DNA of 37,503 bases. Source: an uncultured Bacteroidales bacterium. Its GTDB lineage: Bacteria > Bacteroidota > Bacteroidia > Bacteroidales > Paludibacteraceae. The stretch spans positions 1 to 37,503 of the forward strand of contig CADBYS010000029.1 in assembly GCA_902798965.1 (NCBI GenBank), read 5' to 3'. The translations under genes were made by a program, and so were the position numbers. This document shows, in pieces, positions 1 through 14,704 of the stretch (position 1 is the first letter of the stretch; each line of letters starts with the position of its first letter). The notes beneath the pieces were generated by a model. It was not told the DNA's origin and ran no database searches. It saw only the letters and a program-made list of their open reading frames with translations.

Positions 1-1
1 T

Positions 2-418
2 ATGTATTACAAACTGATACGACATACACTATTGGAAAGTTTCGAAAGCAAGGACGGGAATCGTCATGATGTGGTAATAGGCACCCTATACAAGGTGCAT
101 CATTACTTCAACCACCGCACAGGAGTGACTGTTGAAGTGCTGACGCCTCTTTGCGACACGATGGAGTTTGCCGACTCGATGATTCTGCCGCTCGTGTACA
201 GGGTGGATGTGACTCGCAGCTCACGCTTAGGGCGGCTGACACCTAACCTACAGCAAGTACCCGGACATGACGACATCCGCATCCATACCGGCAGATCGAG
301 ATTATCGGATATATACGTGACGTTGGATGAGGAGCGGAAGTTAACCAAACGCTGGTACCGAGAGAAACTGACAGGCGAAGAGACGCGCCTGGAGATAGGG
401 AACTTATGGCAAAGGTAG
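2..418 (+). CDS. DUF5675-like phage-associated small protein
   Basis: A 138-residue protein whose second half resembles the DUF5675 family found in bacteriophages and mobile elements. The visible signature is a strand around residues 62-75 (LPLVYRVDVTRSSR), then 'LQQVPGHDDIRIHTGR' at about residues 83-98, matching the family pattern of 'VPGF.GIRIH.GN'. The usual following 'DTEGC' segment is not recognisable, so the domain may be divergent. No signal peptide or membrane segment is visible. The ATG lies one base from the window edge, so a longer upstream start cannot be excluded, although the N-terminus aligns reasonably with a complete domain. It overlaps the next gene by 13 bases, which suggests translational coupling. 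The biochemical role of DUF5675 is not established. Confidence 0.6.
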   Translation: MYYKLIRHTLLESFESKDGNRHDVVIGTLYKVHHYFNHRTGVTVEVLTPLCDTMEFADSMILPLVYRVDVTRSSRLGRLTPNLQQVPGHDDIRIHTGRSRLSDIYVTLDEERKLTKRWYREKLTGEETRLEIGNLWQR

Positions 419-669
419 AATTTGACATAGGCATTGATTCGGTGCGGGGGATATTGATGGGGAGCGATCCGTATTATATCCGCCGCTATCCGGACAAGGA
501 CGGGAAGGTGATGCATATCGTGCAAGCACGGCCTGACCGCTCCGGCCATGTGGCTACCCAAGCCGAACGGCAGAACCGCATTGACTTCGCGGAGCGTTAT
601 GGCGCCCAACGCCACGCGGAGTTCATGGAGCGGAAGTGGAAAAACCAACTCGAATTATCATTCGAATAG
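406..669 (+). CDS. Small MAKV-family protein A (unknown function)
   Basis: An 87-residue basic protein I cannot assign to a named family. It starts 'MAKVEFDIGIDSVRGIL', which parallels the start of the gene at 1423 ('MAKVEWSAGIDSVSGAL') and, more loosely, the one at 37502 on the other strand ('MAHFKSSNGINDITGAL'). After a variable middle comes a helical segment, TQAERQNRIDFAERYGA, resembling the 'A..R..F' helix of the other members. There is no signal peptide and no cysteine. The start codon lies inside the 3' end of the preceding DUF5675-like gene, so the two are probably co-translated. The fast-changing middle between conserved ends resembles small phage or mobile-element structural proteins, but this is inference. 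Confidence 0.6.
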   Translation: MAKVEFDIGIDSVRGILMGSDPYYIRRYPDKDGKVMHIVQARPDRSGHVATQAERQNRIDFAERYGAQRHAEFMERKWKNQLELSFE

Positions 670-686
670 ACCGCTGACGCTAAAAG

Positions 687-793
687 AAAAAAGACCGTAG
701 CCTGTGGCTACTCAAAGACAAAAGCCTAAAATGTATTAGTGCTGACAACTATTCGGCTTTGAGCGAAGCGTTCTTTGAACGAAGTGGTCTTTT
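687..793 (+). ncRNA. Candidate structured intergenic RNA, multi-hairpin
   Basis: In the 182-base gap between two small genes, several inverted repeats nest inside one closing stem. AAAAGACC (689-696) pairs with GGTCTTTT (786-793). Inside lie a perfect hairpin GTAGCC-TGT-GGCTAC (697-711), AAAGCC (721-726) facing GGCTTT (755-760), and a perfect hairpin CGTTC-TTT-GAACG (769-781). No open reading frame of note covers the region. It could be an RNA leader for the gene at 852 or a structured DNA site. Assignment rests on base pairing alone. Confidence 0.4.
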
Positions 794-851
794 ATCTTTG
801 AGCGCACGAAGTAAGCGGTCGATATATTAACAACCTAAACCTTAACTATTT

Positions 852-1169
852 ATGGCAAAAATCACATTACATGGAATGTTTGCCCGCGTGAAGGGCAAAT
901 TCAACCGGTCGGAGACCTTGTATTTCAAGGGTTGTCCGTGCAAGAAGGAACAGCTTGGTGTTGACCTGCTGAACCCGAGTAAGTCGAAGCACGCAAAGAA
1001 CGTGCAGGCACAAAACGCGCTGAAAACAGCGGCAGCGGCTGCGAAGACTGCGCTGGCTGATCCATCGGAGCGCGCAACGCTGGAAGCTGCGTTCAACGCG
1101 CAGAAGAAGTACAGCTCGCTGTTCGCTTACACCGTGGCGCAGAAGTACGTGAATCCCTTCGGGGACTAA
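852..1169 (+). CDS. Small MAK-family protein B (unknown function)
   Basis: A 105-residue protein without a recognised domain. It begins 'MAKITLHGMFARVKGKF', a looser version of the family start seen at 406 and 1423, then has a short cysteine pair (CPCKK, about residues 28-32). A strongly helical alanine-rich stretch follows (about residues 52-85), similar in place to the helix of the sister proteins. No signal peptide or transmembrane segment is seen. The 12 bases just before the start (ACCTTAACTATT) are the same as those before the gene at 1423, which supports this start and a common origin of the two units. The function is unknown; relationship to the other MAK proteins is probable rather than certain. 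Confidence 0.6.
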   Translation: MAKITLHGMFARVKGKFNRSETLYFKGCPCKKEQLGVDLLNPSKSKHAKNVQAQNALKTAAAAAKTALADPSERATLEAAFNAQKKYSSLFAYTVAQKYVNPFGD

Positions 1170-1179
1170 GATTTCTGTA

Positions 1180-1374
1180 CGGATTCCACGGATCGAACGG
1201 ATTGCAATGAATCTTGGTGGGTCAAAAATTGCCCAAAATAATCCAAAATTATTACAATGGATTATATAGGTCAACAACTACCAACAACAAACAACAACTA
1301 CAATGGCTCTTTATGGTTCACGAATTAAGCGAATTAAACGAATTACGATGAATCCGTAAGATCCGTGAGATCCG
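1180..1374. repeat. Imperfect inverted repeat with 9-base repeat words between MAK genes
   Basis: Two 24-base arms, 1180-1203 and 1351-1374, are reverse complements with 20 of 24 positions matching (core CACGGATC / GATCCGTG). Next to the right arm, 1321-1347 reads as three 9-base units: CGAATTAAG, CGAATTAAA, CGAATTACG. Between the arms, around 1227-1258, is a degenerate copy of the 'CCCAAAATAATC' word that also follows both long hairpins (2032-2062 and 14000-14034). The region has no gene. It may be a small non-autonomous element or a decayed repeat. Confidence 0.5.
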
Positions 1375-1422
1375 GACAGCTTAACAATTTAACCGTTTAA
1401 CCAATTAAAAACCTTAACTATT

Positions 1423-1806
1423 ATGGCAAAAGTAGAATGGAGTGCCGGTATCGACAGTGTATCCGGCGCACTGAGTAAACCGAGTAAGAGTGGTCAGCAC
1501 TCGTGCAACAAGATGTTGCTTGGCACGCACCGCGTAGCCGCGACCACGAGTAACAAATGTAACCGCTTGTATCTGCGCAAGAAAGTGGAGCGTTCCACCG
1601 AGCCCACCGCGGACGAGCTCGCAGCTCGTACGCGATTCAGCATCGTGTCGGCGCAGGTGGCACAGCGCAAGAAAAACCTGGCAACGATGAACCAGGATCG
1701 CGAGGCGTTCGAGGCGCAGAAGAACACCCCGGGCGGCAAGAAGACCCTGACCTCGTACCTGTGGATGGTTGTTGGTGCTGCCTACGACGCCGAGCACCAA
1801 GGGTAA
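1423..1806 (+). CDS. Small MAKV-family protein C (unknown function)
   Basis: A 127-residue, lysine- and arginine-rich protein. The N-terminus (MAKVEWSAGIDSVSGALSK) is clearly related to the protein at 406 and resembles that at 37502. A basic middle carries two cysteines (near residues 28 and 46). A helical segment follows at about residues 64-100 (ADELAARTRFSIVSAQVAQR...), where the sisters have 'T..E..NRIDF' or 'QGEQAQRGSW'. The C-terminus is more hydrophobic (SYLWMVVGAAYD). Its leader ACCTTAACTATT matches that of the gene at 852. A long hairpin and a small lipoprotein follow directly. I do not recognise a function; the layout suggests a mobile or phage-derived gene cassette. Confidence 0.65.
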   Translation: MAKVEWSAGIDSVSGALSKPSKSGQHSCNKMLLGTHRVAATTSNKCNRLYLRKKVERSTEPTADELAARTRFSIVSAQVAQRKKNLATMNQDREAFEAQKNTPGGKKTLTSYLWMVVGAAYDAEHQG

Positions 1807-1851
1807 GTAATCTGCCTGCGGGTGTGGGTTAGAACAAAAACCTAAAAAACA

Positions 1852-1974
1852 CTGCTTGCGGGTTGCTGTGCTTTGCACGTGAGTCTTAGCTTGCTAAGGT
1901 GCTCTTTCAAGTAAACTTGACGATCCCCTTATCAATCTAATCCTCACCTCTGCGAGGCGCAAACCCGCAAGCAG
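1852..1974. ncRNA. Long imperfect hairpin, copy 1 (candidate structured RNA or hairpin DNA element)
   Basis: A 123-base imperfect palindrome. The base is a perfect 13-bp stem: CTGCTTGCGGGTT (1852-1864) with AACCCGCAAGCAG (1962-1974). Further in, GTGAG (1879-1883) pairs with CTCAC (1943-1947) and TTAG (1886-1889) with CTAA (1937-1940). The apex is TCAAGT-AA-ACTTGA (1907-1920). A second copy at 13818-13942 keeps the fold with paired substitutions: its apex is TCAAGC-GA-GCTTGA. This argues for selection on structure. It lies between small gene C and a lipoprotein. It does not match the integron attC consensus, and I cannot name a known RNA family. Confidence 0.55.
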
Positions 1975-2062
1975 CAATAAACCTAAATAAACCCATTGAT
2001 CAATCCATTGGATTATATTAGTCCAAAATGTCCCAAAATAATCAAAAATTCATTGGGATTTT
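1975..2062. repeat. Dispersed repeat tail following long hairpin, copy 1
   Basis: The bases after the hairpin are nearly identical to 13943-14034 after hairpin copy 2. Shared words include AATAAACC.AAATAAACCC (1977-1995), the palindrome AATCCATTGGATT, and GTCCAAAATGTCCCAAAAT. TCCCAAAAT (2030-2038) can pair with ATTTTGGGA a little downstream. The first word also occurs in exact reverse complement at 14227-14245. Sequence identity here is higher than in the hairpin itself. Confidence 0.6.
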
Positions 2063-2072
2063 GGGATAATTT

Positions 2073-2261
2073 TTGGTAATTGAGCGATTATTTATGATTT
2101 TTGCAGGGCTGTTGTGCGTTGCTGCCTGTGGTGCATTGATAAGCTCCTGCAACGTCACCCGCACCGTGACAACCTCCAGCCAGTACGTCCAGCGCGGCGA
2201 CACAACCGTCCTGATTCAGAGCAAGACGATTGAATCTTACGATGCCAGCAAAAGGCTATGA
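2073..2261 (+). CDS. Small lipoprotein of accessory-region type
   Basis: A tiny predicted lipoprotein. A hydrophobic stretch (MIFAGLLCVAACGALI) ends in the lipobox-like ISSC, after which the mature part is short and rich in threonine, serine and valine (NVTRTVTTSSQYVQRGD), ending YDASKRL. Small proteins with this 'SC.VT.TVTT' start are, from memory, common in Bacteroidales accessory loci, but I know of no assigned function. The coordinate given uses a TTG start that supplies a charged n-region (VIER); an ATG at 2094 giving 55 residues is the alternative. A strong terminator follows at 2302-2331. A possible decayed relative (27 codons from 14094) sits at the same place after hairpin copy 2. 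Confidence 0.55.
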   Translation: MVIERLFMIFAGLLCVAACGALISSCNVTRTVTTSSQYVQRGDTTVLIQSKTIESYDASKRL

Positions 2262-2272
2262 CAAGGGACTAA

Positions 2273-12512: not shown

Positions 12513-13085
12513 ATGCAAAAATTGGTCAATATAGTGCTCGTTTTGGCGGTTGTCGGGTTGTGCTCGTGCATGCGTCCCGCGCAGCCTCGTCCGTACGGAT
12601 ATTATCGTATTGACGTGCCTGCGTACGGCTATCAACCCACCCGCCTGAGCGATTACCCGTATAGCTTTGAGGTTGCCGATATCGCGTATATCGATACCAA
12701 GGTGGACAACAGCGAGCCGTATTGGCTGGATATCGTCTATCCTTCCCTCAACGCGCGCATCCATTGCAGCTACAAGCCCATTAAGGGGAATCTGGGCAAG
12801 CTGACCGACGAATCCATCCGTTTCGTGTTCGATCATGCTATCAAGGCGGATGCTATACCAGAGCAGGGTTATAGCAACCCCGAGCAGCACGTGTATGGCG
12901 TGTATTACGATCTGGAGGGCAACACGGCATCGCCTGTGCAGTTCTTCCTCACCGATTCCACGCATCACTTTTTCCGTGCTGCCTTATATTATAATGCTAT
13001 CCCCAACGCGGACTCCCTTGCTCCCGTCAACTCGATCATGCGCCGTGACATCCATCACCTTATCGAATCCTTCCAATGGCAATAA
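12513..13085 (+). CDS. gldD: GldD-like lipoprotein
   Basis: A 190-residue lipoprotein with a signal sequence ending in the lipobox LCSC (Cys at about 18). The mature protein follows the GldD pattern closely: 'RPYGYYRIDVPAYGY', 'YPYSFEVADIAYID', 'YWLDIVYPSLNARIHCSYKPI', and 'SPVQFFLTDSTHHFFRAALYYNAIPNADSL'. GldD is required for gliding in Flavobacterium and is widely kept in non-gliding Bacteroidales, where its job is unknown; it is linked genetically to the type IX secretion/gliding machinery. The start at 12513 is chosen because the promoter's -7 element lies only 20 bases before it. Its last 10 bases overlap the following gene, so the two are probably coupled. Confidence 0.88.
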   Translation: MQKLVNIVLVLAVVGLCSCMRPAQPRPYGYYRIDVPAYGYQPTRLSDYPYSFEVADIAYIDTKVDNSEPYWLDIVYPSLNARIHCSYKPIKGNLGKLTDESIRFVFDHAIKADAIPEQGYSNPEQHVYGVYYDLEGNTASPVQFFLTDSTHHFFRAALYYNAIPNADSLAPVNSIMRRDIHHLIESFQWQ

Positions 13086-13786
13086 TCTCACATATAGTAA
13101 ATTGCGCTAAGGCGGGCAAAAAAATGTTGGTTCGCCTGATCGATCCCGACAAGTTCGATGCCTCCACGCTGTGCCCGGGCTTCGACTTCTACTTCGTAGG
13201 CGGCTCTACGGCTACGGACTGCACCGCCGTTGTCCGTGCTATCCATGCGGCCTGCAGCACACCCGTCATCCTCTTCCCCGGTAGCCCTACGCAGTTCACC
13301 CCCGAGGCGGATGCCTTGCTCTTCCTCACCCTGATGAACAGCCGCGACCCGCGCTTCCTGATCGACATGCATCTGCTCAGTGCTGATGCCATCGCTGCCT
13401 CCGGGATAGAGAGCATACCGATGGGCTATATCCTCATTGACGGTGGCCGCGAGAGTACCACGCAACGCATCACCTCGGCGCAACCGCTTTGTCCCGAAAA
13501 TCCCGATGAGATCGTTCGCTACGCCCGTACAGCCGAACTATTGGGCAAGCAACTCATCTATCTCGAGGCAGGCAGCGGAGCTAATAACCCTGTGCCACAA
13601 GCAGTTATCAGTTCAGTCAAGCAGGCTGTTAGCATCCCCGTCATTGTAGGCGGAGGTATCTGCAGCCCCGAGCAAATGTCCGATGCCTTCGTAGCCGGTG
13701 CCGACCTCGTAGTCATCGGTAACCATTTCGAGCACCACCCCGAACAAATACCCCTGTTTCTTGACCGCTTGGCAACTAAACGTTGA
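13076..13786 (+). CDS. Geranylgeranylglyceryl phosphate synthase-like protein (PcrB/GGGPS family)
   Basis: A 236-residue TIM-barrel prenyltransferase homologue. Phosphate-binding and catalytic motifs are visible: 'RLIDPDK' (about 20-26), 'FVGGSTATD' (about 40-48), 'ILFPGSPTQF' (about 65-74), 'YLEAGSGANNPV' (about 162-173), 'IVGGGICSPEQ' (about 190-200) and 'GADLVVIGNHFE' near 210-221. Family members join a prenyl chain to sn-glycerol-1-phosphate. In archaea this starts ether-lipid synthesis, and Bacteroidota carry a group II form whose lipid product in the cell is unsettled. The start overlaps gldD by 10 bases. No terminator follows; the next 480 bases are a repeat-rich gap. Confidence 0.88.
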   Translation: MAIISHIVNCAKAGKKMLVRLIDPDKFDASTLCPGFDFYFVGGSTATDCTAVVRAIHAACSTPVILFPGSPTQFTPEADALLFLTLMNSRDPRFLIDMHLLSADAIAASGIESIPMGYILIDGGRESTTQRITSAQPLCPENPDEIVRYARTAELLGKQLIYLEAGSGANNPVPQAVISSVKQAVSIPVIVGGGICSPEQMSDAFVAGADLVVIGNHFEHHPEQIPLFLDRLATKR

Positions 13787-13817
13787 AGTATATTTAGAAA
13801 ATAAACATATATAAACA

Positions 13818-13942
13818 CTGCTTTATGTGTTTGCCGTGCTACGTACGTGAGTATTAGCTTGTTAAGGTATCCATTCAAGCGAGCTTGACGGCTACCTTAT
13901 CAATCTGATCCTCACCTCTGCGAGGCGCAAACCCACAAGCAG
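13818..13942. ncRNA. Long imperfect hairpin, copy 2 (candidate structured RNA or hairpin DNA element)
   Basis: Second copy of the element at 1852-1974. The closing arms (CTGCTT at 13818, AAGCAG at 13937-13942) and the inner GTGAG (13847-13851) / CTCAC (13911-13915) pairing are kept. The apical arm is AAGGTA (13864-13869) with TACCTT (13893-13898), then TCAAGC-GA-GCTTGA (13875-13888). Relative to copy 1 the apex changes U-A to C-G as a pair, and a separate GTGC/GCAC hairpin becomes GTGC/GTAC, still pairable by a wobble. Orientation is the same as copy 1. It begins 31 bases after the GGGP synthase stop codon. Confidence 0.55.
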
Positions 13943-14266
13943 CAATAAACCCAAATAAACCCGTTGATCAATCCATTGGATTAGATTAGTCCAAAATGTC
14001 CCAAAATTAATCAAAAATTCAATGGAATATTGGGCAATTTTTTAGTAATTTTTGACTAACAAGAATCATCGTATTGGATTCATTGAAATTTATTTATGTT
14101 TATGGCTGATGTTGGCTGTTACTCGGAGAGTTATGGATTTGACTGCTACGGCACACGTCAAATTTATTTGAAAGGGTGACGTAGCAGACAAAGACATAAG
14201 TCAGGAACGGACAACAGACAACAGCAGGGTTTATTTAGGTTTATTTTCAAAAAAACATACAACATT
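13943..14266. repeat. Repeat tail after hairpin copy 2 and remaining gap before tadA
   Basis: 13943-14034 nearly matches 1975-2062 (shared AATCCATTGGATT palindrome and GTCCAAAATGTCCCAAAAT). After it, 14094-14177 contains a 27-codon reading frame (MFMADVGCYSESYGFDC...) at the position where copy 1 has its lipoprotein; it has no lipobox and may be a decayed remnant. 14227-14245 is the reverse complement of 1977-1995 and, with one mismatch, of 13944-13962, so the gap is bounded by inverted repeats. No convincing gene or promoter is seen in it. Confidence 0.5.
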
Positions 14267-14704
14267 ATGAACACGGATGAGAAATTTATGACCATGGCGC
14301 TGCACGAAGCGCAGCTGGCCTTCGACCAGGGCGAGATACCCGTGGGTTGCGTGATCGTTGCCGACAATCAGATCATCGGTCGCGGCCATAACCTCACGCA
14401 GCTGCTCCACGACGTTACCGCTCACGCCGAGATGCAGGCCATCACCGCTGCAGCCGAGGCACTCAACGGCAAGTACCTGCAGGGTTGCACCCTCTACGTC
14501 ACCGTCGAGCCGTGTATCATGTGTGCCGGCGCTATAGGCTGGGCGCAGATATCTCGGGTTGTCTATGGAGCAGCTGACCCTAAGCGAGGATTTCAAACCT
14601 TCGCGCCGCAAGCCTTGCACCCCAAATGTACGGTTACAGCAGGTGTCCTTGCCGACGACTGCCAAGCACTCATGCAACAGTTCTTCCAACTTAAACGCAA
14701 GTAA
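14267..14704 (+). CDS. tadA: tRNA-specific adenosine deaminase
   Basis: A 145-residue cytidine/deoxycytidylate-deaminase-fold enzyme that converts the wobble adenosine of tRNA-Arg(ACG) to inosine. The zinc site is complete: HAE at residues 53-55 (catalytic Glu55) and PCIMC at 82-86 (Cys83, Cys86). 'IPVGCVIV' and 'GAADPKRG' are as in TadA rather than in guanine or cytosine deaminases. Length is normal. It follows the repeat-rich gap and is separated by one base from the DUF1460 gene, so the two are co-transcribed. No consensus promoter is obvious just upstream, although transcription could enter from gldD-GGGPS through the hairpin element. Confidence 0.92.
   Translation: MNTDEKFMTMALHEAQLAFDQGEIPVGCVIVADNQIIGRGHNLTQLLHDVTAHAEMQAITAAAEALNGKYLQGCTLYVTVEPCIMCAGAIGWAQISRVVYGAADPKRGFQTFAPQALHPKCTVTAGVLADDCQALMQQFFQLKRK

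Follow-up and report, generated by a model that had tools for sequence, protein, structure and literature searches.

What kind of sequence forms a long, imperfect hairpin between bacterial genes, recurs together with its tail, and differs between copies on both sides of its stem at once? The question is raised by a stretch of 37,503 nucleotides from an uncultured Bacteroidales bacterium of the Paludibacteraceae (GenBank contig CADBYS010000029.1), here called, at its full length, the window. An earlier note described two such hairpins, both outside genes and in the same orientation, and ascribed their paired differences to selection on a folded form, either RNA or single-stranded DNA. The hairpins and their near-identical tails are present as described, and their intergenic position and common orientation are confirmed. 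Both copies are real, but a third unit in the window was overlooked, as were the other units of the genome (G000, 2.85 Mb), which number at least 34 in all; a relative, G001, has 11. Overlooked also were the mobile nature of the element and its gene-bearing form.

Anatomy, copies and surroundings of the unit

The repeat unit of about 145 bp is bracketed by direct repeats of the GTTTAT type and folds as a four-arm cloverleaf, i.e., a four-way junction. On the strand favoured by selection the order is GTTTAT flank, outer stem P1, mini-hairpin P4, long arm P3, mini-hairpin P2, the second side of P1 and GTTTAT flank. The long arm displays regularly spaced mismatches. The segment that spans copy 1 and its tail (window 1830-2070) has a predicted fold of -83.2 kcal/mol (z -9.3), and none of 200 shuffled sequences folds as low. 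In locus L104 (minus strand, around 1771), the P1 stem of an A unit contains an additional stem-loop of about 38 nt.

Units were picked as pairs of flank motifs 130-185 bp apart that bracket hairpins. Four of 43 stretches found automatically were discarded as false and six were added by hand, which gives 45 units, 34 from G000 and 11 from G001. By sequence, 18 are of type A, 18 of type B, 6 of type T and 3 of other types. A scan of the own genome with the flank motif ATAAACNYANATAAAY, one mismatch at most being allowed, yields 36 and 37 sites, versus 6 and 7 for a reversed control pattern.

Units are often found in convergent pairs. As the third unit of the window lies on the other strand, the second locus is one such pair (Table 1). 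In pairs with clear open reading frames (seven of nine in G000 and G001, frames being taken by a longest-frame script), the A unit lies beyond one gene's stop codon and the B unit ahead of the next gene's start codon. The tails are part of a separate dispersed repeat, with genomic matches that cover only the tail. Several units are situated at the ends of contigs and may thus be where such assemblies break.

Table 1. Positions of the units, their flanks and the adjoining genes in the window
Feature	Position	Strand	Remarks
PcrB-family host gene adjoining insertion	13076-13786	+	Pfam PcrB
tadA, host gene adjoining insertion	14267-14704	+	Pfam dCMP_cyt_deam_1
Cloverleaf unit, A type, copy 1 (solo)	1852-1974	- (favoured folded strand)	model match 1845-1984 minus, 142 bits; unit in training set
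Arms of copy 1	P1 1852-1864/1962-1974; P2 mini-hairpin 1868-1878; P4 mini-hairpin 1947-1957		P4 is CCTC-TGC-GAGG
5' flank-motif copy of copy 1	about 1833-1851		degenerate
3' direct flank motif of copy 1	1977-1992	+	ATAAACCTAAATAAAC
Tail of copy 1	1993-2080	no strand	AT-rich inverted-repeat sequence, second repeat family; tail-alone matches in genome
Gap from pcrB-like stop to tadA start	13787-14266	+	480 bp
Convergent pair, A> tail <B	13797-14250		read as a non-autonomous (gene-less) element copy
Outer flank motif, unit A	13801-13816	+	
Cloverleaf unit, A type, copy 2	13818-13942	- (favoured)	model match 13811-13952 minus, 133 bits
Inner flank motif, unit A	13945-13960	+	
Tail between the two units	13961-14087	no strand	
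Inner flank motif, unit B	14088-14103	-	
Cloverleaf unit, B type	14096-14234	+ (favoured)	model match, 145 bits; absent from the earlier note
Outer flank motif, unit B	14229-14244	-	

Other genes recur near the units. A module of small genes (open reading frames of 87-137 amino acids, many starting MAK, and a small lipoprotein) is found at window 1-2270 and at L095, L097, L100 and L101, in many cases close to a contig end and next to a unit. Toxin-antitoxin-like pairs of open reading frames, seen by eye, adjoin units at L077 (1566-2283) and L079 (1910-2387) and are possible other cargo. Toxin-antitoxin-like and ATPase-like frames, also named by eye, lie near units at L077, L079, L085 and L093.

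Selection on the fold and the favoured strand

Covariation was assessed with a named structure in 29 of the 45 units, all of A or B type; the 16 outside this training alignment comprise 9 of T or other types and 7 with insertions or odd lengths. Standard pairs are found in 94.3% of paired cells, and 23 of 36 pairs are altered on both sides. Cells changed on both sides number 154, versus 51 in shuffles, and the covariation score is 0.409 versus 0.152. None of 500 shuffles reaches any of five fold measures, and sliding the partners abolishes the signal; the relatedness of the units inflates these shuffle tests, but the contrast is nevertheless very large. Selection on the folded form, as the earlier note had proposed, is strongly supported. 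Of the two paired changes that it had cited, the one in the apex (TCAAGT/ACTTGA to TCAAGC/GCTTGA) is borne out by the sequence. The change of GTGC/GCAC to GTGC/GTAC is likewise present, but what was taken for a wobble is G.T on the strand then folded and A.C on the favoured strand, so that this lone example lends the fold no support.

The unpaired positions of the long arm are also conserved in kind. They are kept purine-purine in 129 of 174 cells at six column pairs, and in all 29 units at columns 49/96. At columns 43-44/101-102 a tandem G.A/A.G is the commonest state.

Mismatch and wobble patterns mark one strand as favoured, which is the opposite of the strand folded in the earlier note and is the same regardless of the direction of neighbouring genes. 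With G.U disallowed in folding, most single mismatches of the unit strand are pyrimidine-pyrimidine or A.C, which read as purine-purine and G.T on its complement; on the unit strand the ratio of A.C to G.T is 12:2 in A units and 13:0 in B units. Forty-nine units of other species agree. On the favoured strand, which is the complement, these have 160 purine-purine, 5 pyrimidine-pyrimidine, 37 G.T and 4 A.C mismatches (G.T against A.C, binomial 1e-7). Thirty-six of them are from 51 found by the covariance model (11 of the close relative G174 and 4 weak or cut ones being omitted) and 13 are from GxxExxY gene loci; a slight lean from finding units by the model is possible, yet all lie outside its training.

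The strand bears on whether RNA or DNA is the selected form. A structured RNA, i.e., a 5' or 3' UTR element or a dedicated small RNA, would be in keeping with units that abut start and stop codons and covary as RNA does. With A after a stop codon and B before a start codon, however, the favoured strand is the antisense one in A units and the sense one in B units, and no single mRNA reading fits. Wobble pairs, G.U in an RNA, are rare (30 of 980 standard pairs are G.T), and the same site can be filled or empty among relatives (see below). The failure of the earlier note to place the hairpin in a known RNA family also stands. A search of the whole window against Rfam gave no match, and one of 13780-14270 at E up to 10 gave seven, all far below thresholds, so that none exceeds a gathering threshold. 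A structured RNA is the least probable of the explanations weighed here.

The choice that had been left open thus leans to selection on single-stranded DNA, on the basis of loop type, the few G.T pairs and the strand logic, A and B units having the same element strand favoured despite opposite orientation to adjoining genes. With respect to the loops, those of P4 are GNA or GNNA in 35 of the 49 units and those of P2 in 23 of the 49. Loops of this kind on G-C stems form extremely stable DNA mini-hairpins, according to the available part of the source (PMC4686876).

Filled and empty sites and the linked GxxExxY gene

Comparison of relatives at the same sites, which the earlier note had recommended, reveals filled and empty sites at both tadA and recG. 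The pcrB-like gene overlaps tadA at ATGA in three genomes (G066, G096 and G195; junctions by eye), and in G000 the 480 bp with the unit pair are in between. Among 29 relatives with tadA, only G002 has an adjoining unit, there beside a different upstream gene. Of 10 genomes searched for the gap between recG and the next gene, 6 permit a comparison; in G157, G194 and G144 the downstream gene is not the same, and the match in G002 is a different protein. The gap has no unit in G096 (about 65 bp), G066 (about 57 bp) and G195 (about 135 bp). It holds an A><B pair in G000, a T-like unit in G001 and G174, and a sister-clade GxxExxY gene in G160, with flanks that lack a model match. The recG gap can therefore be empty, hold gene-less units or hold a GxxExxY gene. 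Filled and empty sites between relatives indicate that the units move. By eye, no target duplication was found at these sites, where flanks are too diverged for base-level alignment.

The units are largely confined to one genus. The covariance model, of 140 positions, was built on units of two genomes; with this, and with strict filters and a limited number of candidates scored per genome in both model searches, genome counts are lower bounds that favour the types of those two genomes. At E up to 0.01, at least 84 of the 178 genomes in the genus (Paludibacteraceae metagenome-assembled genomes, mostly from the ruminant gut) contain units. The homologues that the earlier note had asked for among Bacteroidales are thus many in the own genus and near absent beyond it: of 295 genomes sampled across the order, at least 3 have units, namely G000 itself, a second genome of its genus and a borderline case elsewhere (G368, E 0.003). 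A pattern scan of named genomes matched 20 contigs, all from Paludibacteraceae or uncultured Bacteroidales metagenome-assembled genomes, most with isolate names that refer to rumen, goat, sheep or deer.

The gene found between inverted units encodes a GxxExxY protein of about 146 amino acids, of the PD-(D/E)XK nuclease family. TIGR04256 is matched by four of four proteins at 104.8-150.3 bits (cut-off 35), and PF13366 is also matched. Residues D83, E93 and K95, a D...E-x-K motif, are invariant in 41 of 41 GxxExxY sequences, which is consistent with a place in the PD-(D/E)XK superfamily as judged by motif. A phmmer search against the PDB found no relative. G000 has two gene-bearing copies with proteins 78% identical, and A><B pairs without a gene and the A>GxxExxY<B arrangement are both found in one genome. 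Among clade-I pairs, 44 of 45 are synonymous-saturated or unusable for dN/dS, and the sole usable pair gives 0.057.

The units are linked to one GxxExxY clade, clade I. A first set of 30 loci from 17 genomes has a model match at 17 loci. In a tree of 54 proteins, all 14 match-bearing genes fall in one supported group of 17, the other 3 having no adjoining match; two truncated genes were omitted, and long branches meet inside the group, the halves of which may not be sisters. None of the other 9 GxxExxY genes of the genus has an adjoining unit, nor does any of 30 GxxExxY loci across the order. A clade-I profile gave 30 loci from 30 genomes (9 seen before, 21 new), and a unit lies within 150 bp at all 30 (E up to 0.02), on both sides at 14, with a median distance of 27.5 bp. 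The 3' end of the unit faces the gene in 35 of 44 adjoining units and the 5' end in 9, e.g., at L363, which is flanked by whole pairs. Units occur in 28 of 31 clade-I genomes versus 56 of 147 others (Fisher 5.6e-8, a value inflated by the shared ancestry of the species); the 31 result from a cut set by us in the score list, and two have fragments only. The three clade-I genomes counted as unit-free have a weaker unit at the gene's own locus. Scored unit matches per genome average about 8.2 with clade I and 1.8 without.

GxxExxY genes are found more widely, in 110 of 198 sampled Bacteroidales genomes, two of which have 12 copies. Their flanks often show CACAGAG-type inverted repeats (L289-L318). 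At L241, L243 and L256, in three genomes, a GxxExxY gene of another clade is seen by eye next to one and the same transporter-like gene; the repeats that surround it differ, and its flanks seem to change more rapidly than the gene does. Also by eye, the tail at window 1993-2080 is similar to inverted flanks at certain other GxxExxY genes (e.g., L258). Three more AT-rich stretches at window 1170-1420 (GTCAAAAATTGCCCAAAATAATCC, GGTCAACAACTACCAACAAC and GGTTCACGAATTAAGCGAATTAAACG) are like inverted flanks of other clades (L239, L242, L258; by eye), and the intergenic region around them looks like a stack of remnants.

The GxxExxY gene might be a mere passenger on hairpins mobilized by an unrecognized host or phage enzyme. 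The gene is small and has no known function, many units carry no gene, and no clade-I gene was detected in 56 of the 84 genomes with units, although some of these may have the sister clade, have lost the gene or be incomplete. Against this are the units at 30 of 30 clade-I loci, with their clade specificity, and the order-wide position of GxxExxY genes between inverted repeats, which exceeds control pairings at the 95% level in 14 of 28 usable order loci (28 of 30 loci were used in the genus and 28 of 30 in the order). GxxExxY is thus the constant gene, and a passenger role is unlikely.

The first hypothesis for a mobilizer was a different one, that the units are giant REP/BIME elements and that RAYT (TnpAREP) HUH transposases encoded in the genus move them. 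A RAYT-like family is present in 128 of the 178 genomes and co-occurs with units (Fisher 2.5e-5). REPs are likewise strand-marked imperfect single-stranded DNA hairpins in inverted pairs (PMC8266576, available part), and a Bacteroidetes TnpAREP subclass, 2.6, has atypical flanking structures that are also found elsewhere in the genome (PMC6006769, available part). Despite the significant co-occurrence, RAYT failed the adjacency test. At E up to 1, no unit lies beside any of 43 distinct genes (46 stretches; a 47th source, L238, is not a RAYT locus); L235 has a match at a distance of about 1 kb, and L224/L192, which hold the same gene, have one of chance level more than 1 kb away. By eye, several RAYT genes have short repeats of a different kind, and 11 of the 84 unit-bearing genomes have no RAYT match, including G029 with 15 units and a clade-I GxxExxY gene. 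RAYT-driven movement is accordingly very unlikely. As to the RAYT-like genes themselves, full-length proteins from L187 and L188 (G000:C16 and G000:C1) and L189-L191 have 338-418 amino acids with a conserved C-terminal extension, and their matches to NF047646 are below cut-off. The genes at L188, L231 and L232 have their own short palindromic repeats in their flanks.

It is therefore hypothesized, with somewhat better than even confidence, that the full element consists of a cloverleaf unit, one GxxExxY gene and an inverted cloverleaf unit, about 0.8-0.9 kb in all, that empty pairs and solo units are its non-autonomous derivatives, and that GxxExxY drives the movement. The element DNA would become single-stranded, and the marked strand of each end would fold into the junction-like cloverleaf. 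GxxExxY would bind the folded ends and cut at the GTTTAT repeats that bracket them, and the element would be copied or moved into another intergenic site; gene-less copies would be moved by GxxExxY in trans. The PD-(D/E)XK superfamily includes junction resolvases, of which a four-way-junction end and a protein of that superfamily are reminiscent.

A broader proposal is more tentative and falls a little short of even confidence. GxxExxY proteins, which many Bacteroidales have, may be the mobility nucleases of unrecognized single-gene elements with folded single-stranded DNA ends; in the present genus the ends would have become 140-nt four-way-junction cloverleaves, and gene-less copies would colonize gene boundaries. 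GxxExxY is common, and no assigned role was found for it; a role as mover of structured DNA repeats would give the family a function and add another nuclease type to the DNA mobilizers. It would also provide a case of DNA folds selected as strongly as RNA folds. In the open-licence literature no description of GxxExxY-linked repeats and no mention of PDDEXK_3 were found; one passage there that mentions GxxExxY concerns a gene beside a reverse transcriptase.

Comparison with known systems

REP/BIME sequences with their RAYT genes are similar in being intergenic, multicopy, imperfect, strand-marked hairpins of two subtypes in inverted pairs, with a linked resident nuclease gene. A REP is a palindrome of 20-50 nt that follows a conserved tetranucleotide, usually GTAG (PMC8266576, available part). 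In contrast, the unit described here is of about 145 bp with four arms, its flank is GTTTAT-like, and the linked family is GxxExxY PD-(D/E)XK, not HUH. By palindrome size and tetranucleotide, and by cognate flanks, the units do not belong with REP/RAYT.

Intervening sequences of 23S rRNA with an S23p open reading frame are selfish, with stem-forming ends around one small frame of unassigned function (PMC4990558, available part). The elements here are also small and selfish in appearance, with stem-forming ends and one small open reading frame. Unlike the S23p sequences, they are located between protein genes, have four-arm ends and a nuclease-family frame, and are accompanied by dispersed gene-less copies.

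The attC site of integrons, systems characterized by inverted core sites and a tyrosine recombinase (IntI), is a long imperfect hairpin with one favoured strand and conserved unpaired bases. The units share all three properties; they differ in being inverted around a gene and in having flank motifs that are direct rather than inverted.

MITEs and the IS200-IS605 elements are comparable in that gene-less pairs with terminal inverted structures are found alongside a gene-bearing form, and the ends of IS200/605 fold as single-stranded DNA hairpins. In the loci examined here, however, no DDE or HUH gene lies between the ends, each end consists of a whole cloverleaf between direct repeats, and target duplications, sought by eye in flanks that are too diverged, are not seen. 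As in MITEs, the two ends are common to gene-less copies and a gene-bearing form. Should GxxExxY be a passenger, the units would represent a novel variety of MITE-like repeats; if it has the mobility role proposed here, they form a class of their own.
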